Source of the DNA: a virus
DNA: 36,087 nucleotides
Direction: 5' to 3' (one strand)
Virus record (IMG/VR): IMGVR_UViG_3300034073_002360
Location: 1 to 36,087 of that record
Below are positions 1,443 to 16,948 of the stretch, piece after piece. A program made the translations under genes and the position numbers. The notes beneath the pieces were generated by a model. That model was given only the letters and a program-made list of their open reading frames with translations, had not been told where the DNA came from and ran no database searches. Position 1 is the stretch's first letter, and each line of letters starts with the position of its first letter.

Positions 1443-1457
1443 GTGCGTCGCTTAGAC

Positions 1458-2798
1458 CTAGAAGGTCGGGGCGACGAGGCCGGTGCCGCTGATGACAGCG
1501 AAGTTGTCGCCGGCGTACCTCTCGGCAGTGAAGGCCGAGAAGTTGTAGAGACGGAAGCGCACGGTGAGCTCCGCCGAGAGGGTCTCGCGGAAGACTTCCG
1601 CCTTCGGAGCGCCCTCGTAGAGGAAAGCGTCGTCGAACTTGCCGACGATGATGCGGTCCTCGTTGGTGCCCGAGCCGAGGTTGGTCGGGATGTTGGCGTC
1701 CAGGTAGACCGGCAGGCCCATGAGGGTGCCGGCGAACGCCTCCGCAGCCACGTCGCCGAAGGTGGCGACAGCGTTCTGCGGGACCGAGCTGTTCGGAACG
1801 ACCAGCGGGCGGTTGCTCGAGTCGAGCGAGGCCAGCAGGAAGCCCCAGCGGCGCGGGTGCATGACGATCGCGTTCGGCGGCGCGAAGCGCTCCGAGTTGA
1901 TCTGCTGCACGGCGTCAGCCAGCTTCGGGAACAGGCCGGCAGCGGTCGGCGTCGTGGCGGTGTACGTCACGGCGTTGACGGTGTCGGCGTTGAGGATGCC
2001 CTCGTGCGTACCGGACGAACCGGAGCCGCTGATGATCCCGTCGTCGATGGCCTTCGCGTGAGCGGCGGCCAGGTCGGAGAAGATCACCTGGTCAAATGCG
2101 ACCGGCGATTGCTCGACCAATTGAACGGAGCAGTCGCTGATTCCGCCGTAAGTGCGGACGGGAGCGGTGACCGCAGCGGTGACCAGGTCGGTCTCCGAGA
2201 CGGCAGTGTTCTGCGTGGCCTGAGCGGCGACCGACGTACCCGTCGTGATGGCGGGGACGCTGATCGAGTCGGTGCCCGCCGGCAGCGGGAACTTCTGGCA
2301 CAGGTCAGCGGTGACGCGACCGGCGCGGGCCTTGGCAACATAGTCGGCCACGAGCCAAAGAGGCGGCACAAACTCTCCGCCCGAAGTGTCGGTCGTGTTG
2401 TTGTCGCGGGCCTCGCTGGTTGCGATGTGCAGCGAGTGCTGGGACAGACGCTCGGCGGCATCGCTGTCGCCACGGGTCTTCGCCAGGTACAGGTCGCGGA
2501 AGTAGGAGCGCTCGGGCCGGTCCTTGCGGTACACGGCCTCGTTGCTCACGACCTCCACGCGGGGCGACTCGGTCTCCTCGACCGGGCGCACCGGCATCGA
2601 CTCGCGGGCCTCGACGACGGCCTCCATGCGCTCCAGCTCCTTGCGGGCGCGCTCGGCGGCATCGTGAGCCGAGTCGAACTCCGACTGCAGGGCGTCGAGG
2701 TCGGCCGACTCGTCGGCGGTCTCGATCGCGTCAGCAGCGGAGTGAAGGGTCTGCGCAGCGGCGTTGTAAGCGTCGCGCAGCTCGGTGATGCGGGACAT
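1458..2798 (-). CDS. Major capsid protein, HK97 fold, with N-terminal scaffolding (delta) domain
   Basis: A 446-aa protein. Residues 1-65 form a charged coiled coil (RITELRDAYNAAAQTL onwards), like the HK97 delta domain that scaffolds the prohead and is removed by the phage protease. The remainder, from about residue 125 (TSGGEFVPPLWL), is the HK97-type shell domain with the late stretch on viewing C-terminus NFAVISGTGLVAPTF. No separate scaffold gene is present, which fits the fused scaffold. The ATG at 2798 overlaps the protease stop (TGATG) with AAGGAG upstream; a GTG three bases earlier is too close to that site. It lies directly after the protease, as in HK97. Confidence 0.93.
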   Translation of the reverse strand: MSRITELRDAYNAAAQTLHSAADAIETADESADLDALQSEFDSAHDAAERARKELERMEAVVEARESMPVRPVEETESPRVEVVSNEAVYRKDRPERSYFRDLYLAKTRGDSDAAERLSQHSLHIATSEARDNNTTDTSGGEFVPPLWLVADYVAKARAGRVTADLCQKFPLPAGTDSISVPAITTGTSVAAQATQNTAVSETDLVTAAVTAPVRTYGGISDCSVQLVEQSPVAFDQVIFSDLAAAHAKAIDDGIISGSGSSGTHEGILNADTVNAVTYTATTPTAAGLFPKLADAVQQINSERFAPPNAIVMHPRRWGFLLASLDSSNRPLVVPNSSVPQNAVATFGDVAAEAFAGTLMGLPVYLDANIPTNLGSGTNEDRIIVGKFDDAFLYEGAPKAEVFRETLSAELTVRFRLYNFSAFTAERYAGDNFAVISGTGLVAPTF

Positions 2799-3691
2799 CA
2801 CTTCTCCTTGCTGTGGTGATTGTGGAGAGCCATGCGCGCGTTGTTGCGCATGACCTGCAGACGCTTGGACATCGTCTGCTCGCCGCCCTCATCCGAAGCG
2901 ACGGCGCCGCCCGCCTGTTCAGGCGCGACGGTTAGAGCCCCAGGAACTTCCTGCGAGCTGTCCAGAAGATTGTGTTGGCGCAGCGCCGAGCGAATCAGCG
3001 CAACGTCGGTCTGCGGGTAGGCGCCCTGAGCGACTACTGAGACGTCGTAGAGGCCGGAGACCTTGCGAACGGTGCGCATGATGGTGCCGGTCTCCTCGTC
3101 CTTCCTCCACTCGTCGCCGTCCTCGGCGGTAGTGAAGGCAAAGCTCATCTGATCGACCAGGCCGGTGCGCAGCTGCTCGGCGAGGTCTTTGGCGTAGGAG
3201 AGCTGCGTGTTGATGCGGGCCCAGATGCGAAGGCCCTGCTCATCCTCGACGAGCTCAAGGGTGCCGTTGGCGGTGCGGGCCAGCGGCATCGTCATGTCGT
3301 GGCCGATGACCAGGTGAACGTCGGGCTGCTCGGCGAGCACGTCGGCAAAGGCGCCCGGAGCGATGCGCTCACGGAAGCCGCCGAGGTCGTGCGAGAGGTT
3401 GTTGAAGACGGCGGCGTGGCCGCGAACGGTCAGCTCATCCGGGCTGGCGCCGCTCTCGCGGACTTCCAGCTTGACCGGCGTGGTGGTAATCCACCGGCTC
3501 GCCAGCGGGTCTTCTTCCTCGAGCTGGTCTTCTACCTCGTCTGCCGCCTCTTCTTCGGCGATGTAGAGCGCCGCAAGCTGCTTGGCGGCCTCCGCGTTGG
3601 TCATGTGACAGCCGACAACCTCGCCGGAGTCATCCTTCACGACCGCGAAGCCTTCGCAGTCTGCGTTGTCGTCTTCAATGTGCCAGGGCAT
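2798..3691 (-). CDS. Prohead maturation protease (HK97/U35 family) with an extra N-terminal domain
   Basis: A 297-aa protein. Residues 70-200 match the HK97-type prohead serine protease that cleaves the capsid delta domain: VRGHAAVFN near 89-97, candidate catalytic His131 in VIGHDMTMPL, and candidate Ser183 in QMSFAFTTAEDGDEW. Residues 1-45 (WHIEDDNADCEGFAVVKDDS and GCHMTNAEAAKQLAALY) form a compact extra module often seen at the start of such proteases in actinobacterial phages; an acidic linker (48-61) follows. The C-terminal 80 residues are low in complexity. The ATG at 3691 directly follows the portal stop codon. It acts inside the prohead during assembly. Confidence 0.88.
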   Translation of the reverse strand: MPWHIEDDNADCEGFAVVKDDSGEVVGCHMTNAEAAKQLAALYIAEEEAADEVEDQLEEEDPLASRWITTTPVKLEVRESGASPDELTVRGHAAVFNNLSHDLGGFRERIAPGAFADVLAEQPDVHLVIGHDMTMPLARTANGTLELVEDEQGLRIWARINTQLSYAKDLAEQLRTGLVDQMSFAFTTAEDGDEWRKDEETGTIMRTVRKVSGLYDVSVVAQGAYPQTDVALIRSALRQHNLLDSSQEVPGALTVAPEQAGGAVASDEGGEQTMSKRLQVMRNNARMALHNHHSKEK

Positions 3692-5116: not shown

Positions 5117-5905
5117 CTAGAGCTCGGCGATTTCGCCGTCTACTGTTTCGATGAAGTTGCGGGTAGTGCGCTCGACCTTGGCCTCGTCGCGCACGCGGTA
5201 GTAGTCGCGGGCGGCCTGAGCGCGGTCAAAGGTGCGCAGCTTGTTGCGGTGCTCAAAGTCAAGGTTGAGCTGGCCGTGAGGCACGACGTCGTACTCGGTC
5301 GACGGGCCCCACAGCGCCTTTAGGCCCCATTTCCAGTCAGGGTCCTGCACGGCGAAGAGGTAGTGAGCGCCGAAGACGCGCAGGCCGCGCAGCGCCTTGA
5401 ACACGCACGTCAGCGGGCTGCTTGACTTGTTCGGGGCGCCAGGGTTGCCGGTAGGCACGATTGAGGAGCCGTCCTCGCCCTTGTTCCAGTCCCAGCGCTC
5501 AACCAGGTGGACGTTGTACGCCTCGTACTCGCCGGACTGCATCTCGTTGCGGGCCCGTGTGCAGTCGCCATTGACCAGGAAGGTGTCGGCGTCGATGACG
5601 ACGTACCAGTCCTCCTCGGTAGTCATTTGCTCGGCGAGCTGGAACATAAACGAGCGTTTCTCAACCTCGTTGCCCATCCAAGGCGTGTCGGGCACAAAGA
5701 GCGTGTGACCTATGCCTGCTGCCTCGCAGCCGGTGGCGATCGCGTCGTGAGCCTCTACGCCGCTCGAGCGCCCGTCTTTGTCATAAAGAAAATAGGCACC
5801 GTCGACGTAGATCATGTGATCCACGAGGCGTGAGCAGGCGGCTGGGTGAGCGGCAAGCCAGGTCGGTGACTCGTCATAGAACGAGCACAGCCCGACAACC
5901 TTCAC
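5117..5905 (-). CDS. Glycosyltransferase-like protein (GT-A fold)
   Basis: A 262-aa protein that begins MKVVGLCSFYDESPTWLA, a typical nucleotide-sugar binding start. It contains VDHMIYVDGAYFLYDKDGR and a DxD motif in YVVIDADTFL (near residue 105), the metal- and sugar-nucleotide-binding signature of GT-A glycosyltransferases. The downstream half has a conserved-looking Trp-rich stretch (DPDWKWGLKALWG). The GTG at 5905 overlaps the stop of the ATP-grasp gene (GTGA), so the two are expressed together. Acceptor and sugar donor cannot be told from sequence; virion protein decoration is one inference, DNA or surface glycan modification another. Confidence 0.75.
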   Translation of the reverse strand: MKVVGLCSFYDESPTWLAAHPAACSRLVDHMIYVDGAYFLYDKDGRSSGVEAHDAIATGCEAAGIGHTLFVPDTPWMGNEVEKRSFMFQLAEQMTTEEDWYVVIDADTFLVNGDCTRARNEMQSGEYEAYNVHLVERWDWNKGEDGSSIVPTGNPGAPNKSSSPLTCVFKALRGLRVFGAHYLFAVQDPDWKWGLKALWGPSTEYDVVPHGQLNLDFEHRNKLRTFDRAQAARDYYRVRDEAKVERTTRNFIETVDGEIAEL

Positions 5906-6891
5906 AGCGTCACCTTCATGGCTCCGGCGTCCATCTCGCGCACCCAGGCCACCTCGGGCTCGCACTTCTGCCCGAGCTCCTGCTCGCGGCCGAGCCCGGC
6001 GTGAATGTAGGCGCCGACAAGGCTGCAGCCGGCGTGATGCCAATGCAGCGACGTTGTACCGAAACGGCCACAGTTTACTTCTGTGACCTTCGGAATCCCG
6101 GCTGTGTCTTCCCTTGCGTCGAGCATAAAGACGCCGTTAGGGACGCCCTGCAGCGCTCCTGTGACCCGCAGAGCGAGGTCGTGCAGGTCCTTGCGGTCGA
6201 TGGTGACCTGAAGCGTGGCGGTGGACGCGATGCGGGCCGGTGAACGGTCGGCACCGAGAAGACGCAGGCGCTCCTTCATGCCGTAGGCAATGAGCTCGCC
6301 GTCCTTGAACACTCCCGTCCACGAGAGGTCCCTGCCGGGCAGGCGCTCGGCCAGCATCCATTCGTCGTCGGCTATGCCGAACTGCCGGTGGTGGCGCATC
6401 CAGGCGCGCGCGATCTCAACGTCTGAGACCGGCAGGGCACCGGAAGAGCCCGCACCCGTGCGAAGGCGCATCCAGCAGTCGCCGCCGAGGTCCTCGATGG
6501 CCCGCTCGAGCTCGTTTTCGTTGGTGAGCGGTAGCGTGGCCGGCGCATTGGGGCCGACGGCGTTGGCGGTGCGGTACTTATCGCCGCAAACGAATAGGGC
6601 CGCCCTGTTCGGCAGAAGCGTTGGCGCGTTGAGCAGGTGAGCGTTGGCCGAAAGCCATTTGACCTCGGCGTCGGGCTGAGCGTGGACGAAGGCGACGTCG
6701 TACTTGTGGATCAGCTGGTTGATCTCGGTGGCGGTGCGCTCGCGGCGCACGAGCTCGCGGTGCCTTCCCCTAGCGAGCTGCAGCATGAACGGGTCCACGT
6801 CGCAGGCGACCGTCTCGTGCCCGCACTCGTAGGCAGCCTTTGTGAAGTTGACGCCGGCCGGGCCTCCAGCGCCGAGGACGAGAATCATCAT
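5902..6891 (-). CDS. ATP-grasp ligase-like protein
   Basis: A 329-aa protein. Residues 1-100 form a pre-ATP-grasp Rossmann-like domain (MILVLGAGGPAGVNFTKAAY; VACDVDPFML), then an ATP-grasp core with LRTGAGSSGALPVSD as a likely phosphate-binding loop, MLAERLPGRDLSWTGVFKDG, and the metal-binding end VTEVNCGRFGTTS. The family joins carboxylates to amines or thiols through an acyl-phosphate. The first of two ATGs (6891) overlaps the terminase stop (ATGA); the next gene's GTG overlaps its own stop. Its position between terminase and portal, paired with a glycosyltransferase, is unusual for a metabolic enzyme and suggests a role in modifying a virion or surface component. Substrate unknown. Confidence 0.78.
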   Translation of the reverse strand: MMILVLGAGGPAGVNFTKAAYECGHETVACDVDPFMLQLARGRHRELVRRERTATEINQLIHKYDVAFVHAQPDAEVKWLSANAHLLNAPTLLPNRAALFVCGDKYRTANAVGPNAPATLPLTNENELERAIEDLGGDCWMRLRTGAGSSGALPVSDVEIARAWMRHHRQFGIADDEWMLAERLPGRDLSWTGVFKDGELIAYGMKERLRLLGADRSPARIASTATLQVTIDRKDLHDLALRVTGALQGVPNGVFMLDAREDTAGIPKVTEVNCGRFGTTSLHWHHAGCSLVGAYIHAGLGREQELGQKCEPEVAWVREMDAGAMKVTL

Positions 6892-8516
6892 CCGATAAGC
6901 ACGAAGCCCTGCTCGGCCTGCTCGTTGACAGAGCGCCACGCTCGCCAGGTAGCCATGACCGAGGCCACGCAGGCGTCGATGCGCTTGCTCTGGTCCTTCT
7001 TCTGGATTCGCCAGCCCCTGTCGGTCATCTTTGCTGCTGTCGCTTCGACGTGAGCGGCCAGAACTGCGTCGCCGTCGTGAATCAGGCGGCGCTCCTGTGC
7101 TGATGCGTAGAACTGCTGGTAGGCATCGGCCATCGCGGCCGAGGACTGATGCAATGGAGCCACGGTGAGCCCTTCCCCTGAGAGTGTCTGTGCTGAGCGC
7201 TCGAAGAAGCGCGGGTCAAAGACGAGCTCGCGCACGTCGTAGGTGTTTGCCAGCGTCCTGACGTACTCCTCGACCTGCTCAAGGTCGACGCGGCCACCTT
7301 CGGCGTATTCGTGAGCCGGTACGTCGTGAACGGCGCTCCAGACGTGCGCGGTTACGGCAACCTTGTCGCCCGTGACCCACGACATTGAAACGGCTGTGGT
7401 GTCATGCACTAGGCCAACGTCGATGCCGAGATAGACGGGAGTGCCGGGCGCCGGGCGAAGCTCGTCGTCATGCATCTCATCCCACAGGCCCGGTTTGAGC
7501 CATGAGGTCCTTGTCGCCGTCCATTGGTTGAGGTGAAGGCGCCGAAAGGCCTGCTCGTCAACGGTGGGCGAGTCAAGCTGCTGGCGGAGCGTCTGCGGCG
7601 TAACCCACGAAGCCGGATTAGCGCGCATCCAGGCGTCCTCGTCTTCAATGTCGCTGTCGGCCGGCGCCTGCCACCAGTAGAACAGGAAGCCGGTGTCGGT
7701 GTCCTTGGCGACGAGCAACGAGCCGTTCTCGCGCTCTTCCAGCTGCGGCAGCTCGGTGGCCTGCTTGAACAAGCGGCCAAGAACGGTCTCGCGGTCATAG
7801 CCGGCCGTCGTGATGGAGACGGTTAGCGGCTGCTCGCGGGCCCCTGTCGCGGTCTGCATCGCCGCCCAAAGCTCTTCCTGCCTCGGAGTCATCCACGAGT
7901 GCAGCTCGTCGGCGACGATCGTTGAAGGGTTTAGGCCGTGCTGGAGCTTGCCATCAGCGGCGATGCGGCGAATGAGGCCATCTGTCTGCGGGCACTTGAT
8001 GACGAAGCGCTGCTGGTCAAACCACAGGCTTAGATCGGCGTTGCTGTCAGCGAACGCTCGAGCCTGGTCAAAGACGACGGCGGCCTGCTCGCGGGAGCCC
8101 GCTGCCACTACGACATCTGGCGCGTGTTCGCCTTCGGCCGAGCAGGCCCACAAAGCCAGCGCCGAGAGCAGCGAGCTCTTGCCGTTCTTGCGCGGCAGCC
8201 CGATAAGCGCCTGGCGCACGATGCGGTTGCCGTGCTTATCGACGGCCAGCAGGTCATCGACAAGCTCGCGCTGCCAGGGCTCAAGCTGAAACGGCTTGCC
8301 ATGCCAGCGGCCGATCGTGTGACGAATCAGCTGGTCGGTGAACAGCGAAAAGTGCTTGGCCGGCTCCAGCGGGCCGCCCTGGCGGATGCTCTTTGCCTGC
8401 CACAGCTTCGGCGTCGCGTCGCGCTCCTCAAGCAGGTGCTCGTGGCGGTCCCACCGAAAGGTGCCATCCCTCTGGTGCTGCTCAAGCGTCTTCGCCCTGC
8501 TCGGCGGTGTCGGCAT
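6888..8516 (-). CDS. terL: Terminase large subunit
   Basis: A 542-aa packaging motor. The ATPase domain has a Walker A-like motif IGLPRKNGKSSLL (residues 105-117) and a Walker B VADELHSW with Asp203-Glu204. The C-terminal nuclease domain has YLGIDVGLVHDTTAV, and LVFDPRFFER, with acidic residues expected to bind metal. It docks on the portal, pumps DNA into the prohead and cuts it. I took the ATG at 8516 because GGGGAG lies five bases upstream; in-frame codons further up run into a terminator-like hairpin. A separate small subunit is not obvious; an HNH gene takes the place upstream. Confidence 0.95.
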   Translation of the reverse strand: MPTPPSRAKTLEQHQRDGTFRWDRHEHLLEERDATPKLWQAKSIRQGGPLEPAKHFSLFTDQLIRHTIGRWHGKPFQLEPWQRELVDDLLAVDKHGNRIVRQALIGLPRKNGKSSLLSALALWACSAEGEHAPDVVVAAGSREQAAVVFDQARAFADSNADLSLWFDQQRFVIKCPQTDGLIRRIAADGKLQHGLNPSTIVADELHSWMTPRQEELWAAMQTATGAREQPLTVSITTAGYDRETVLGRLFKQATELPQLEERENGSLLVAKDTDTGFLFYWWQAPADSDIEDEDAWMRANPASWVTPQTLRQQLDSPTVDEQAFRRLHLNQWTATRTSWLKPGLWDEMHDDELRPAPGTPVYLGIDVGLVHDTTAVSMSWVTGDKVAVTAHVWSAVHDVPAHEYAEGGRVDLEQVEEYVRTLANTYDVRELVFDPRFFERSAQTLSGEGLTVAPLHQSSAAMADAYQQFYASAQERRLIHDGDAVLAAHVEATAAKMTDRGWRIQKKDQSKRIDACVASVMATWRAWRSVNEQAEQGFVLIG

Positions 8517-12051: not shown

Positions 12052-12254
12052 TACCTGCGACGGGCAAGCAGCCCGATCTCCGTCATCAACTGCTCAAGGC
12101 GGGCGACCTTCTGTCCAAGACTGTCGCGCTCTGACCGCAGCTCGCGCTCAGCCTGGTTGTAGCCGACGCGGTAGGCCTTGCTGGCGTCCATTGTCGGCAC
12201 AATTCCCGCGCGCTGAAGCGCGCCATGTATCTGTCCTTGGCCTTCGGCGTTCAT
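12051..12254 (-). CDS. Small coiled-coil protein
   Basis: A 67-aa protein with an N-terminal polar part (MNAEGQGQIHGALQRAGIVP) and a heptad-patterned helix (AERELRSERDSLGQKVARLE) ending in Arg-rich residues. ATG at 12254 overlaps the stop of the methyltransferase gene (ATGA). Function unknown; it may be a partner of a neighbouring DNA-binding protein. Confidence 0.6.
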   Translation of the reverse strand: MNAEGQGQIHGALQRAGIVPTMDASKAYRVGYNQAERELRSERDSLGQKVARLEQLMTEIGLLARRR

Positions 12255-13744
12255 GCGGCCTCGTCCAATAGTCCGAGTTGCCCTGACTGCTTAACCTCGT
12301 CACGTACCCCAGCGGCGCGCATGATGTCGTCGGTGTCGCCTTGGGCCTGATGCTTCTCCCACCAAGCGATGCGCGCCTTGGCAATCTGCGCGTATTCGGC
12401 CTCGCGCTCAACGCCGACAAACTCAAAGCCCTCTAGGACCGCAGCGCAGCCCGTTGTGCCGCTGCCGGTAAACGGGTCAAGGACGGTGCCGCCCGGCGGG
12501 GTGACGAGCCGGCATAGGTAGCGCATCAGCTCTATTGGCTTCACGGTCGGATGCGCGTTGCGCTGAGGCTGGACACCTTTTTGCTCAAAGGTTCGCATCC
12601 CGGTTTCGGTTCTGTTATCGGGACGCTTGACCTCAAACCCGTCTAGCCCGGCGTTGCGCTCAGCCTTAGAGCTCTTGGCGCAATAAAAGAAGCGGGACGC
12701 GCCGCCGGAGTCGTATTCAATGCGAGCCTCGCGTTGCACGCCAGCGCGTTCGCCGCCGGCGGTATAGACACTCCCAAACCCGACGTTGTTGCTCTTAGGC
12801 GCTGCGCCAGGAGCACGCTCCCCGCTCTGCTCGTCTAGGAGCCGCCCGGCTTCCTCGTCCATCATCACGTTTGCGGGCCAGCGGCCACTAGCGGCCGTCC
12901 ACCCGCCCGAGCCATCGCCACCGCTCACCGTTTCCTGTGTCCCAAACGTCGCCGTTCGATGCCCTGCGCTCGGCTCGTCACCCGGCGCAATCCCTATCCG
13001 GCATCCGTCAATGTTCAGCGCGCCCGTCCCAAACTCCAACACGTTCGCCGCAACCGTCCCTGCCAGCGGCTTACGGGCAACGACAATCGGCTCGTGCGCC
13101 GGCTTCAGGGCGGTTCCCCACCCCTCCCACCTCTTCGCGCCGTCGGTCACAGGCGCATAGCCGTAAATAGGCGTGTCCACAAACTCAGCTGGATCAGCAC
13201 CCGCAGGGGTTGCCATTCGAGCACTTCTTCCGTCGGCGGTGCGACGGGCGCGTCCTTGAGCCATCCTGATAACGCCGGTCCGTCCGTCCTCTCCCGCCGC
13301 CTTGTCAATCGCCTTCCCCACATTCAGCGACTTAGGAAACCCCGACCCATAAAGCCACATCATCTGATCCCTGACCTCAAAGCCTGCGTCCTCAACCGCG
13401 CACGCAAGGCGGTGATACGTCCGGCTCCCACCGAAAGCCAACAAGTGACCCCCAGGCTTGAGGATGCGCAGGGCTTCGGCCGCCCACAGCTCGCACCAAG
13501 CCTGAAAGTGCTGGTTGCCGCTGAGCGACAGGTCGTAGCTGCCAGCATGCATTGAGGCGCTGCGCTCCCGACTCTTGTGATGATCGCCGCCTGCGTTCTT
13601 CGACGCTTGAGCTATCGCCTTGCCGTCCCACGCCTTGCCCATGAAGTTGATGCCGTAGGGCGGATCTGTTACGACGGCATCGACGCTTGCCTCGGGCATC
13701 TCGCGCATCGCCTCAACGCAATCGGCCTCAATCAGCCGCCACAT
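12251..13744 (-). CDS. DNA methyltransferase, DPPY type (N6-adenine or N4-cytosine)
   Basis: A 497-aa enzyme. The catalytic motif DPPYGI is near the N-terminus (residues 27-32) and the S-adenosylmethionine-binding motif DPFTGSGTTG near the C-terminus (423-432). This order of catalytic then AdoMet motif is the beta class. HPTVKPIELMRYLCRL precedes the latter, as in CcrM-like enzymes. The central 200 residues (about 180-380) are probably the target-recognition region. ATG at 13744 overlaps the HNH stop (TGATG). It modifies phage DNA, most likely against host restriction. Target sequence cannot be read. Confidence 0.9.
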   Translation of the reverse strand: MWRLIEADCVEAMREMPEASVDAVVTDPPYGINFMGKAWDGKAIAQASKNAGGDHHKSRERSASMHAGSYDLSLSGNQHFQAWCELWAAEALRILKPGGHLLAFGGSRTYHRLACAVEDAGFEVRDQMMWLYGSGFPKSLNVGKAIDKAAGEDGRTGVIRMAQGRARRTADGRSARMATPAGADPAEFVDTPIYGYAPVTDGAKRWEGWGTALKPAHEPIVVARKPLAGTVAANVLEFGTGALNIDGCRIGIAPGDEPSAGHRTATFGTQETVSGGDGSGGWTAASGRWPANVMMDEEAGRLLDEQSGERAPGAAPKSNNVGFGSVYTAGGERAGVQREARIEYDSGGASRFFYCAKSSKAERNAGLDGFEVKRPDNRTETGMRTFEQKGVQPQRNAHPTVKPIELMRYLCRLVTPPGGTVLDPFTGSGTTGCAAVLEGFEFVGVEREAEYAQIAKARIAWWEKHQAQGDTDDIMRAAGVRDEVKQSGQLGLLDEAA

Positions 13745-14061
13745 CAAAAGTCCCTCTGATTAGTCGTGCGGCGATAGGCCAACGCGATTCCGCCGGCCTG
13801 CCTGACGGCTGCTACCTGCTCGGGCAACGTCAGGTATTCAAGGATGGAGAGCTCGTGTCTGTCATAGGCGCCGTGACAGCCGTCAGGGCCTCCGCAGAGC
13901 GGCACGATGTTGTCGGCGCCCATGTTGTTGCCGACTCCAGGCGCAAGGCTCCTGGGGATTACGTGCGCGGCCTCTACCTGAAAGCTCGAGCGGCAGACGC
14001 GGCAGCGAAAGCCCTCGCGCTCAACCTTCTGGCGGGCTTCTTTCCAGTTGCGGCGCTTCAT
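13744..14061 (-). CDS. HNH endonuclease in the methyltransferase island
   Basis: A 105-aa HNH protein: Cys20 and Cys23 (FRCRVCRSS), His33 in EAAHVIPRSL, Asn51 in ADNIVPLC, then Cys56, Cys62 and His63 (GGPDGCHGAYDRHE). These give both zinc ligands and an HNH-type active site. ATG at 14061 overlaps the C5 methyltransferase stop, and its own stop overlaps the DPPY methyltransferase ATG. A nuclease sitting between two methyltransferases could be a homing-type, McrA-like or restriction-like enzyme; no data here decide. Confidence 0.85.
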   Translation of the reverse strand: MKRRNWKEARQKVEREGFRCRVCRSSFQVEAAHVIPRSLAPGVGNNMGADNIVPLCGGPDGCHGAYDRHELSILEYLTLPEQVAAVRQAGGIALAYRRTTNQRDF

Positions 14062-15137
14062 CCCTCACGCTCCACAGCCATGATCCGGCGCCCTATCCAT
14101 TCCGCGACGTTGCTCACGACCCCGTTGCCGCAGGCTGCATAGCGGCGGCTGTCCGGTGTCTTGTCGCCATCAACCGCTGTCCAGCCGTCAGGCCAGCTCA
14201 TAAGACGCTCGCACTCCGTAGGTGTGAGGCGACGAACTGAGGACTGATGCAGTGTCGCTTTTCTCAGGCTTCTAGTAAGCGGGCCTGAAGGTGCGCCGGC
14301 CTCTGTGACCTTCCCTTGATTGCTGTATTCAGCCTCAAAAGTGATCGGTCCAGGCACAAACATCCCTGCGCCAGATAACGCATGTTGATCTTCCAAGCCC
14401 ATTTTCGTCCCAAACGCCGTATTGAGCGTCGGGGCAACCTCAGCCGGCCACCTCACGCCGCCAGCCCTTTGAGTGCCTGCTCCAGTTCCGGCGGCAGCGT
14501 CCTGCCACGAGCATCGGCCCGCCTCAAGATCCCCCTCGCCGCCCGCGCCGAGAGCGCGTACCGCTCGCTCACCGTCGTCTCCAAGACATCCGACAATGAA
14601 CACTCGACGGCGTCGTTGGGGGACTCCGAAGTATCTAGCGTCGACCACTCGCCAGCTGAGGCCATACCCGATTTCGGCCAGCGTTGAGAGAACGACTCCC
14701 ATGTCTCGTCCGTTGGCAGAGGAGAGGAGCCCAACGACGTTCTCAACGAGGAGCCAAGTTGGTCGAAGCTCATCTGCGATTCGGGCAAACTCAAAGAAGA
14801 GTCCTGAGCGCTCACCTGCGAGTCCGGCTCGCTTGCCGGCGACGGAGAGGTCTTGGCACGGGAAGCCTCCACAGAGAAGATCAAGCTGGTGCCGCTTCGG
14901 CCTTTGCGCAGCGTCTCCACCTCGGTGCTGATGCGTCCCTCTCCGGCCATGTTCTCGATGTAGGCCATCGGCTGAGACTGCTCGCACGTCGTCAAAGATG
15001 TCTGCGTCGGGCCAGTGCCATCGCAACACTCGTCGGCACCACTCATCGACTTCTGCCTGCCACAGGACGCGCATACCGGCCCGCTCAAGCCCGAGGTCAA
15101 GTCCGCCGACTCCTGAGAAGGTTGAGCCGACATTCAT
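14058..15137 (-). CDS. dcm: DNA (cytosine-5)-methyltransferase
   Basis: A 359-aa enzyme with the C5 motifs in order: I FSGVGGLDLG (residues 7-16), IV GGFPCQDLS with catalytic Cys94, VI VENVVGL, VIII FGVPQRRRRVFIVG, IX RRLTPTECERLMSWPDGW, and X AACGNGVVSNVAEWI. The region between VIII and IX is the target-recognition domain. ATG at 15137 overlaps the preceding stop (ATGA). A second long open frame (14453-15133) overlaps about 63% of this gene, starting four bases after its start codon. Modifies phage DNA; target unknown. Confidence 0.95.
   Translation of the reverse strand: MNVGSTFSGVGGLDLGLERAGMRVLWQAEVDEWCRRVLRWHWPDADIFDDVRAVSADGLHREHGRRGTHQHRGGDAAQRPKRHQLDLLCGGFPCQDLSVAGKRAGLAGERSGLFFEFARIADELRPTWLLVENVVGLLSSANGRDMGVVLSTLAEIGYGLSWRVVDARYFGVPQRRRRVFIVGCLGDDGERAVRALGAGGEGDLEAGRCSWQDAAAGTGAGTQRAGGVRWPAEVAPTLNTAFGTKMGLEDQHALSGAGMFVPGPITFEAEYSNQGKVTEAGAPSGPLTRSLRKATLHQSSVRRLTPTECERLMSWPDGWTAVDGDKTPDSRRYAACGNGVVSNVAEWIGRRIMAVEREG
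14453..15133 (-). CDS. Overlapping alternative-frame ORF inside the cytosine methyltransferase gene
   Basis: An uninterrupted 226-aa frame read from ATG 15133, four bases after the methyltransferase ATG, so one ribosome site could serve both (ATGAATG). The product is Ser-rich (MSAQPSQESADLTSGLSGPV) with a Cys-containing N-terminus and a C-terminal part that reads like real protein: WPKSGMASAGEWSTLDTSES, CSLSDVLETTVSERYALSAR and GILRRADARGRTLPPELEQA. In the last 32 codons, 26 end in G or C, against 21 of 33 in the methyltransferase frame. From memory, similar alternative-frame proteins accompany other phage C5 methyltransferases. It may still be only a shadow of a constrained gene. Confidence 0.4.
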   Translation of the reverse strand: MSAQPSQESADLTSGLSGPVCASCGRQKSMSGADECCDGTGPTQTSLTTCEQSQPMAYIENMAGEGRISTEVETLRKGRSGTSLIFSVEASRAKTSPSPASEPDSQVSAQDSSLSLPESQMSFDQLGSSLRTSLGSSPLPTDETWESFSQRWPKSGMASAGEWSTLDTSESPNDAVECSLSDVLETTVSERYALSARAARGILRRADARGRTLPPELEQALKGLAA

Positions 15138-15355
15138 CCCTTTAGCGCCTTCTTGGCCGCAGCCACGCCCGCCGATGCGCTAGGCAGCGTCAACGGGATG
15201 GCGGCGATGTCGACGAGGGCCTTGCGGTAGGCATCACGCTCAATGGCGAGCTCGCCGCAGGTCGTCAGGGCATCGCGCACGTCGCGCCACAGCACCCACT
15301 CCCCCTGCGGGTCGTGCTCAGCCTTCCAGGCTCCGGCGAGGGTGTAGCGGGTCAT
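15134..15355 (-). CDS. Small protein of unknown function
   Basis: A 73-aa protein starting [20 protein letters not shown], with a helix over residues 30-50 (CGELAIERDAYRKALVDIAA). ATG at 15355 overlaps the nuclease-like gene's stop (ATGA), and its stop overlaps the cytosine methyltransferase ATG. Very common size and style for early phage operons; family not recognised. Confidence 0.65.
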   Translation of the reverse strand: MTRYTLAGAWKAEHDPQGEWVLWRDVRDALTTCGELAIERDAYRKALVDIAAIPLTLPSASAGVAAAKKALKG

Positions 15356-15807
15356 GCTGGCACCGCCAACAAAGTCCAAGGGTGGGGAGCTGATGGCCTT
15401 TCCTCAGCCCACCATCCCCATTCGCACCACAGCCGGTCCCTCCTGTCGACATCGGCGTCAAACCTTTGACTGTCAAGTACCTGGCCGTCATTCCAATAGC
15501 GAAGCCGCAAAGCAACAACGGAATCCTGGGCTTGGTCTTCGCACCATTGCCACATCAGCGAGACGCGCTCGGCTTGGTTGACAAGTCGACGCAGCGCCTT
15601 CTCTTGGCCCCCGCGCATCTCGTCATAGCTCAGAGGCTTGCTTTCAACAATCAAGAACCGATTGTTGATCTCGTGGAAGCCGTCAATGTCCGTTGCGCTG
15701 CTACCTCGAGGCAGCCTGCGGCCCGTGCGGCCAAGAGAGTCAGGGTCCCATCGACGCTCAAGCCAGCAGTCCTGTCCGCGGTCGCAATCATGTCGCCACT
15801 TAGTCAC
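15352..15807 (-). CDS. PD-(D/E)xK-like nuclease candidate
   Basis: A 151-aa protein. Residues 38-57 ([20 protein letters not shown]) have the D-x(n)-E-x-K spacing of PD-(D/E)xK nucleases: Asp40/Asp42 and Glu55-Ser-Lys57 on two adjacent strands, followed by a helix [19 protein letters not shown]. The N-terminus has Cys/His residues ([10 protein letters not shown]) that might bind metal. GTG at 15807 overlaps the Dam-like stop. Lying between two methyltransferases, it could be a restriction-like, repair or resolving nuclease. Fold inferred by motif only. Confidence 0.6.
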
Positions 15808-16619
15808 GGCTTCACCACCACAAACCCGAGCTCGTCGTAAGCCTCAGCGAAGGCTCGAGCGCGATCGCCTAAGTAGAGAACGGCCTGCCCCTGCAGCGGC
15901 GTAGCGCTCTTCCGTTCGGGGTGCCAGAACCGCACCCTTCCCTTCGGAAAGCACATCGCCGCAGAACATGAGGCCAACAGCTGAAACCACTCGGTCTCAG
16001 TCGCGTTGTTGACGAGCACACACGCTTGGTCGACGCGCGCTTCGGCGTACTCCCGCACCACCTTCTCGGCAAAGTGTCCGATTAGCGGCTGCGCATAAGG
16101 CGGATTCATCCAGACGCGCCCTTGCCAGTCCTGAGCCAGCCCGTCGTCGTCCAGCGTGTAGATCTGCTTCGCACCGACAACCTCGTTAGCGGTCTCGTTG
16201 GTTGCAGGATCTAGGTCAATGTCGCCCATCGCCGTGCGGGCTGCGTCGATGTATTCCTGCGGCGTGTACCACTCGTTTTCGCCGCTGTTATGGCCTACAT
16301 GAGCTCCTGGCTTCTTGTCGGGTAGCGCCTGAGTGACGATGCCGTACCACGAGCCAAAAGTGGCCAATACATTGGCCACTTCTGCCTCACTACTGACCTG
16401 TTCTGCAAACTGAACTCGATACTTGAGCTCGCTCCGGCTTTTTCCAGTCTGCTCAACAAGGCGATCCAGCAACCCATGAGGCAGCTGCTTGCCCTTGCGC
16501 TGCTTGAGCAGCTCGCGGCCAAACTCCCAGCGAGCCATGATGCCCTCGCCCTCAGCCGCGTCGACCTTGCGGTCAAGCTCAACTAGCTCATCTACCTCTA
16601 CTGCGACGGCGGTGCTCAT
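15804..16619 (-). CDS. Phage Dam-like DNA N6-adenine methyltransferase
   Basis: A 271-aa protein with two parts. Residues 25-100 are helical ([20 protein letters not shown], then a Lys/Arg-rich HTH-like stretch). Residues 115-271 match phage N6-adenine methyltransferases: [31 protein letters not shown], catalytic NPPY at 172-175 in [11 protein letters not shown], and [21 protein letters not shown] at 16619 overlaps the stop of the secreted protein gene. It would methylate adenine in phage DNA; site unknown. The fused N-terminal part may add DNA binding. Confidence 0.88.
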
Positions 16620-16948
16620 CGAATCCGCCCCCAGCAGCTCCACGCCGAAAAGCCAACGTCGCGCGCCACGCGGTTTGCCACGCGCATCTGCTGGCGCCAC
16701 GTCGCATAGCCGGCGTTGCTCGGATACCACGGCAGCTTCCAGTGCTGCCAGGTTGCGTAGTAGAAGCCAAGGCCGCCCTGATAGGTCGGGCCCTTGTGAG
16801 ACCAGTTGACTCCGCGCCAGCCGCTACCGGGCTGCTCGCAGCGACCCATCTTCACCCACAGCTGCCAGTTGGCGGGCATCGGGCGGGCCTGCGCTACAGG
16901 AGCGCCGAGAGCCATCGCGGCCAGGACGGCGACGAGGAGCCTACGCAT
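16616..16948 (-). CDS. Secreted transglycosylase / resuscitation-factor-like protein
   Basis: A 110-aa protein. Residues 1-21 are a signal peptide ([20 protein letters not shown] then A). The mature part, about 89 residues, begins [20 protein letters not shown] and includes Glu38, the expected catalytic acid in a lysozyme-like or Rpf-like fold (GRCE), then [11 protein letters not shown] and a C-terminal Cys in SAWSCWG that could pair with Cys37. ATG at 16948 has GAGGAGG six bases upstream and overlaps the preceding stop. Its position in the early/lysogeny region, away from holin and endolysins, suggests export during lysogeny or early infection rather than lysis. Confidence 0.75.

Follow-up and report, generated by a model that had tools for sequence, protein, structure and literature searches.

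A conserved second gene nested in the +1 frame of phage C5 cytosine methyltransferase genes

Results

The dcm locus and its hidden frame

The window analyzed here is the whole stretch of 36,087 bases from virus record IMGVR_UViG_3300034073_002360, which carries terminase, portal, capsid, integrase, and amidase genes. The dcm gene, which hosts the overlap, was located at 14058..15137 on the minus strand and codes for a C5 cytosine methyltransferase of 359 aa (PF00145, E=2.5e-60; TIGR00675, E=2.8e-57). Its frame was intact, with conserved motifs I to X according to the PF00145 profile match and the aligned C-terminal motifs, and its start overlapped the stop of an upstream ORF at 15134-15379. 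The gene was flanked by an N6/N4 methylase gene and an HNH gene (12251-14061) on one side and by a Dam-type methylase gene (15804-16730) on the other. Three DNA methylase genes were clustered on the minus strand between 12251 and 16730, namely N6_N4_Mtase (12251-13747), dcm, and Dam (15804-16730), with the HNH-like gene at 13744-14061. Two other frames in the window were noted. A 345-aa ORF at 5902-6939 (minus strand) lay amid structural genes; it gave no Pfam match at E<=0.001 and was ATP-grasp-like by eye. A 458-aa open frame at 1443-2819 (plus strand) was antisense to the major capsid gene and was probably a by-product of GC-rich codon use.

A sequence-only reading of this DNA had reported an uninterrupted second frame inside dcm. 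The ORF and sequence check found it as described, with 226 codons plus stop at 14453..15133 on the minus strand. Its ATG lay 4 nt past the dcm ATG, within the ATGAATG at 15131..15137, which placed the hidden ORF in the +1 frame. The C-terminal part of the frame was also said to use more G/C-ending codons than dcm, and our counts agreed. They were 27/33 versus 22/34 over the last 33 codons and 49/60 versus 35/61 over the last 60.

Synonymous shuffles were performed with the dcm protein and codon usage fixed. The same 226 codons were open in 6.4% of the shuffles, and 12% had an open run at least as long as the hidden frame. The openness of the hidden frame in the window alone was unremarkable (P about 0.06-0.12). 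The amino acid sequence was far outside chance expectation. A profile of the relatives, with the window excluded, scored the real hidden frame at 174 bits, compared to 59.8 ± 9.8 in 1000 synonymous shuffles (z=11.7). With the C-terminal profile, the window scored 75.6, compared to −4.5 ± 9.9 in synonymous shuffles (z=8.1). In addition, the PHROG 16143 profile matched residues 80-198 of the hidden protein (E=3.1e-12). The window protein had no match in Pfam, NCBIfam, or PADLOC, defence and counter-defence models included. A marginal PADLOC type II methyltransferase match was obtained for one relative, L005 (E=0.0097).

Relatives of the hidden frame

The hidden protein matched 198 phage records in tblastn. 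In the first eight records, which include mycobacteriophages, Caulobacter, Roseobacter, and Streptococcus phages, P1 Dmt, and others, the match was the +1 frame of an annotated methyltransferase in 8/8. A search of genome contigs with one protein alone gave no match. Scans of viral and bacterial contigs, for which the search alignment was of narrower range, gave 160 further loci, with recorded hosts ranging from Proteobacteria to Acidobacteria, Planctomycetes, Bacteroidetes, and Firmicutes. All 173 of the 173 hidden-protein matches overlapped a dcm frame in +1. A stand-alone copy of the hidden gene was looked for in all collections searched, and none was found (0/173 matches). The candidate for such a copy, gp104 of Mycobacterium phage Thibault, was rejected because it is what remains of a dcm gene that an HNH gene interrupts. 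At this locus (L255, gp102-gp105), the annotated 81-aa gp104 corresponds to the C-terminal part of the hidden protein.

In Streptococcus phage MM1 (DQ113772), orf14 lies within orf13 at the corresponding site and is its hidden +1 frame, and PHROG 16143 matched orf14 over its full length. The two frames are annotated as "C5 methyltransferase alpha subunit" (orf13) and "beta subunit" (orf14). The statement in the sequence-only reading that other phage C5 methyltransferases carry a similar alternative-frame product was thus borne out by the +1 matches in phage dcm genes, by MM1 orf14, and by the 173/173 loci. PHROG 16143 and PHROG 1008, both named "DNA methyltransferase", are made up of the hidden frame in whole or in part, and this name appears to have been transferred from the overlapping gene. 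Other database members of the hidden family were filed as "DNA methyltransferase" or as hypothetical proteins.

Selection on the second frame

Since the first loci had been found via the hidden frame, a second set was collected through the dcm protein only. It comprised 63 phage dcm genes with clear motifs. Stops in the +1 frame were counted from GGxPC to 25 codons beyond motif VIII, and the expectation was taken from synonymous shuffles. The 63 genes had 0 stops compared to 195.3 + 28.3 = 223.6 expected, a result that speaks for the subfamily around the window dcm because the 63 genes are its nearest relatives. In the same genes, the +2 control from GGxPC to motif VIII had 287 stops against 270.6 expected, and the +1 frame farther downstream had 301 against 249.4. 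Ordinary C5 methyltransferases in bacterial genomes (n=17) had 96 stops in +1 against 93.3 expected, with no hidden-protein match in any of the 17. Phage-type genes from the same bacterial-genome searches (n=14) had 0 against 39.2 expected. The hidden frame was absent from ordinary host C5 methyltransferases.

Synonymous constraint was measured as the rate at which the same codon was used for the same amino acid among 31 sequences of <65% identity. The ratio of synonymous codon identity to expectation was 0.95-1.07 over dcm codons 1-60. It rose to 1.2-1.5 over codons 76-150, to 1.5-1.9 over codons 151-180, and to 2.2-2.55 over codons 181-225. Past codon 225 it fell to 1.14 and then to about 1.0, and the stop of the hidden frame is at codon 228. 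Because the inside and outside values come from a single alignment with an identical set of sequences, relatedness alone does not explain the shape of the constraint. Over dcm codons 196-210, amino acid conservation was 0.67 in the hidden frame against 0.41 in dcm, and the dcm wobble base was conserved at 0.74 against 0.44 for its first base. The N-terminal part of the hidden protein was conserved too, less than the C-terminal part.

The alternative frame was therefore not broken in the relatives, and the excess constraint at dcm synonymous sites, up to 2.55 times expectation, ended with the hidden ORF. The proposal of the sequence-only reading that dcm is a dual-coding gene was strongly supported by the stop counts, the synonymous constraint, the conservation of the hidden frame, and the window profile (z=11.7). 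The stretch with this evidence covers dcm codons ~80-227, at 14453..14900 on the minus strand; synonymous identity was 1.2-2.55 times expectation only here, and the 63 unbiased relatives had 0 of the 224 expected stops. Over these codons, selection keeps the hidden frame open and preserves its amino acids, both in this phage and in phage-type dcm genes of many bacterial phyla. Judged from the sequences, the hidden gene would encode an unrecognised protein of ~150 aa that is clearly preserved by natural selection.

Start of the hidden frame

No comparative support for hidden-frame coding was obtained for the upstream part of the ORF (14901..15133, minus strand). The synonymous ratio was 0.95-1.07 over dcm codons 1-60, and the relatives start downstream. 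An ATG was located 8 codons upstream of GGxPC in 105/212 of the relatives' genes. At the sites where the wobble base alone decides between ATG and ACG at this position, ATG was used in 45/48 against 19.8 expected (P about 2e-14). Four other positions were tested; three gave little or no ATG excess, and position −10, which is the start in some relatives, gave a weaker excess (15/19 against 8.4 expected). A Shine-Dalgarno-like stretch was present upstream of the internal ATG in 130/176 relatives. In P1-like enzymes the hidden start was later, near codon 101-105.

It had been proposed that one ribosome site at ATGAATG could serve both frames. The comparisons did not support such a shared start, since dcm codons 1-60 were unconstrained and the relatives use a selected internal ATG, usually with a Shine-Dalgarno-like stretch. 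A start at ATGAATG is still conceivable for the small group of the window, in which L175 also has an ATG four bases past the dcm start, with the frame open from there. The window dcm has an insertion of ~28 residues at the start site of the relatives and no ATG at −8. Candidate internal starts were ATG at 14966-14968, ATG at 14948-14950, and GTG at 14918-14920 (14918..14968, minus strand).

In L170, L175, and L199, the hidden-frame translation of a dcm insertion just upstream of GGxPC looks like a target-recognition stretch (SENQRGELLLTEVAHQLTAGGGKPGQGYSAVAF). Other phage dcm proteins carry a SENQRGELLLTEVAHQLTAGGGKPGQGYSAVAF-like stretch in frame between motifs VIII and IX. The insertion of the window, IENMAGEGRISTEVETL, possibly at 14900-14970, had a faint likeness to the SENQRGELLLTEVAHQLTAGGGKPGQGYSAVAF-type stretch by eye.

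Predicted structure of the two products

AlphaFold with 121 natural sequences predicted a confident helical hairpin at residues 180-226 of the hidden protein (pLDDT 91-98), with helices at residues 196-209 and 215-225. This C-terminal mini-domain, SLSDVLET..YALSARAARGILRRADARGRTLPPELEQALKGLAA, is encoded at 14453..14596 on the minus strand and was the most conserved part. No confident structure was obtained before residue 180. The product is therefore predicted to consist of a flexible N-terminal part and a small C-terminal helical hairpin. For dcm, the model showed a good fold (pTM 0.71), but pLDDT was <50 over most of residues 199-288. Thus, the load would be split between the frames, with the hidden protein flexible where dcm is folded and dcm mostly disordered where the hidden protein is folded.

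The mini-domain had no structural match in PDB (best E=2.6). In a viral structure library it matched just Thibault gp104, which is the same gene (E=3e-3), and A0A8S5LZA8, which is named cytosine methyltransferase (E=9e-4). No known regulator fold or DNA-binding family was found in the hidden protein by Pfam and structure search. A QLxLF-like motif in the N-terminal part was considered as a sliding-clamp-binding site; this reading was dropped because a similar string was present in the +1 shadow of L341, an ordinary dcm gene.

Likeness to the segment after motif VIII

The C-terminal profile was searched against 300 Firmicutes genomes. Strong matches fell in +1 of dcm genes; there was also one clear in-frame match (L394), besides weaker ones. 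The L394 match and the weaker ones in L384, L386, and L387 were each located directly behind motif VIII of an ordinary C5 methyltransferase, in the enzyme's own frame, and the L394 segment reads LKKVLEKHVPEKYYFSAKAVQGMLKNRESMNK. Weak in-frame matches after motif VIII were also found in L260 and L290. In the first four enzymes, the hidden mini-domain and the post-motif VIII segment were alike in profile at the same site. They differed in that the segment of ordinary enzymes is in frame, ~20 residues after motif VIII, whereas the hidden mini-domain is in the other frame and starts opposite motif VIII itself. An hhalign comparison of the hidden protein with a mixed alignment of host methyltransferases gave no homology support (E=0.31). 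Since this result was negative but the genome-wide search with the C-terminal profile was positive, the evidence for homology to the methyltransferase segment was rated as moderate. We infer that the hidden hairpin may descend from, or mimic, the post-motif VIII segment.

In L044 and L175 (also L174), the hidden frame continued in frame into the C-terminal methyltransferase motifs (VRRLTPxECERLQG). For L044 and L175, this run-on could be a split-enzyme-like layout, and an assembly error is possible. PHROG 1008 looked like the same run-on arrangement as L044, L174, and L175.

Discussion

These results indicated that dcm of this phage hosts a true nested gene in the +1 frame, and we regard dual coding in dcm as practically certain. 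The opposite reading, that there is no second gene and that the frame owes its openness, as a by-product, to GC-rich composition and dcm protein conservation, fits the window taken alone (P about 0.06-0.12). It could also draw on the N-terminal part of the profile, which weakly matched the +1 shadows of ordinary dcm genes, mostly with internal stops. However, these shadow matches never reached the C-terminal mini-domain. The stop counts, the synonymous constraint, the conservation, the selection for ATG, and the window profile were all against a by-product, and the synonymous-shuffle controls refuted it, which leaves this reading extremely improbable.

In the relatives, translation of the hidden protein would begin on the dcm mRNA at the internal ATG, served by a separate Shine-Dalgarno, and the two proteins would thus be co-produced. 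A role of the product in controlling or accompanying the methyltransferase, as first suggested from the DNA alone, is plausible. Our preferred reading, which we hold tentatively, is that the product may serve the methyltransferase as a small accessory subunit. The subunit would dock at the border between the catalytic domain and the target-recognition region, since the hairpin resembles the in-frame post-motif VIII segment, which is replaced in phage-type dcm by mostly disordered sequence. Every match lay inside a dcm gene, and the in-frame matches after motif VIII and the run-on in L044 and L175 were consistent with this role. The missing Pfam family and PDB match and the hhalign result (E=0.31) argued against it, and co-encoded genes need not act together. 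A stronger form, which we consider somewhat unlikely, is that phage-type C5 methyltransferases are split by reading frame, with the post-motif VIII segment displaced to +1 and supplied in trans by the nested gene. One stretch of DNA would then code for two mutually dependent parts of a single enzyme in phages of many bacterial phyla, P1 and pneumococcal MM1 among them.

The hidden protein could instead be independent in function, for example in counter-defence or host takeover, with dcm merely the site of encoding and co-expression. Small, partly disordered nested viral products are generally known to be often of such a kind (reviewed in PMC8227390), and ordinary methyltransferases have nothing that corresponds to the N-terminal part, which is conserved, though less so. 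If the protein acted freely, it should sometimes occur as a stand-alone gene; yet in all collections searched the hidden protein was only ever seen within a dcm gene, which counts against independence. The C-terminal likeness to a methyltransferase segment pointed in the same direction, and no defence or counter-defence model matched except for the marginal methyltransferase match in L005. We consider independence doubtful. It is less probable again that the hidden protein is a brake or timer that holds methylation down by binding the methyltransferase or the dcm mRNA region, with nested translation itself tuning dcm output. Both frames are on one mRNA, with the internal Shine-Dalgarno and ATG within the dcm body, and a product that mimics the post-motif VIII segment could compete with contacts that the enzyme itself makes. 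However, no known regulator fold or DNA-binding family was found, and pure translational tuning would not keep the amino acids of the product, yet these are kept.

Conserved long overlapping genes in DNA phages have rarely been established so firmly. The hidden gene sits in a textbook enzyme family and is present in P1 Dmt, pneumococcal MM1, mycobacteriophages, and prophages of many phyla, where annotation skips or misnames it. Should the product prove to be an enzyme partner, assays that used phage C5 methyltransferases expressed from recoded genes, in which the hidden frame is destroyed, would need to be reconsidered.

The arrangement was compared with known systems. In two-subunit C5 methyltransferases of the M.AquI kind, two overlapping frames on the same strand make one methyltransferase, and the second subunit brings the target-recognition region and motifs IX and X, which are absent from the first. 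The window is similar in its same-strand overlapping frames, and L044 and L175 approach the M.AquI layout. However, the window dcm is complete to its C-terminus, and the hidden protein has no target-recognition region, no motifs IX and X, and no PF00145 match. MM1 orf13/orf14 and PHROG 16143 contain the same hidden frame, but they are annotated as a subunit or a methyltransferase, with dual coding and conservation unstated, and the hidden protein itself contains no methyltransferase motifs. No description of this nested gene was found in the open-access full-text literature searched. Nested viral genes are a known kind, and MM1 orf14 and PHROG 16143 are unrecognised members of the hidden family.

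An insertion in the methylase of phage ShiLan hides an out-of-frame HNH endonuclease and is sporadic and selfish (PMC11855218). Both cases have an out-of-frame protein inside a phage methylase gene. The hidden frame differs from the ShiLan insertion in that it runs through the conserved body of dcm and occurs throughout the subfamily, and it gave no HNH or Pfam match. Viral overprinted genes (reviewed in PMC8227390) share with it the same-strand +1 nested frame and a constraint shared by two frames. In contrast to the usual overprinted genes, the host here is a DNA-phage methyltransferase, the distribution is very wide, and the product apparently resembles a piece of the host enzyme.
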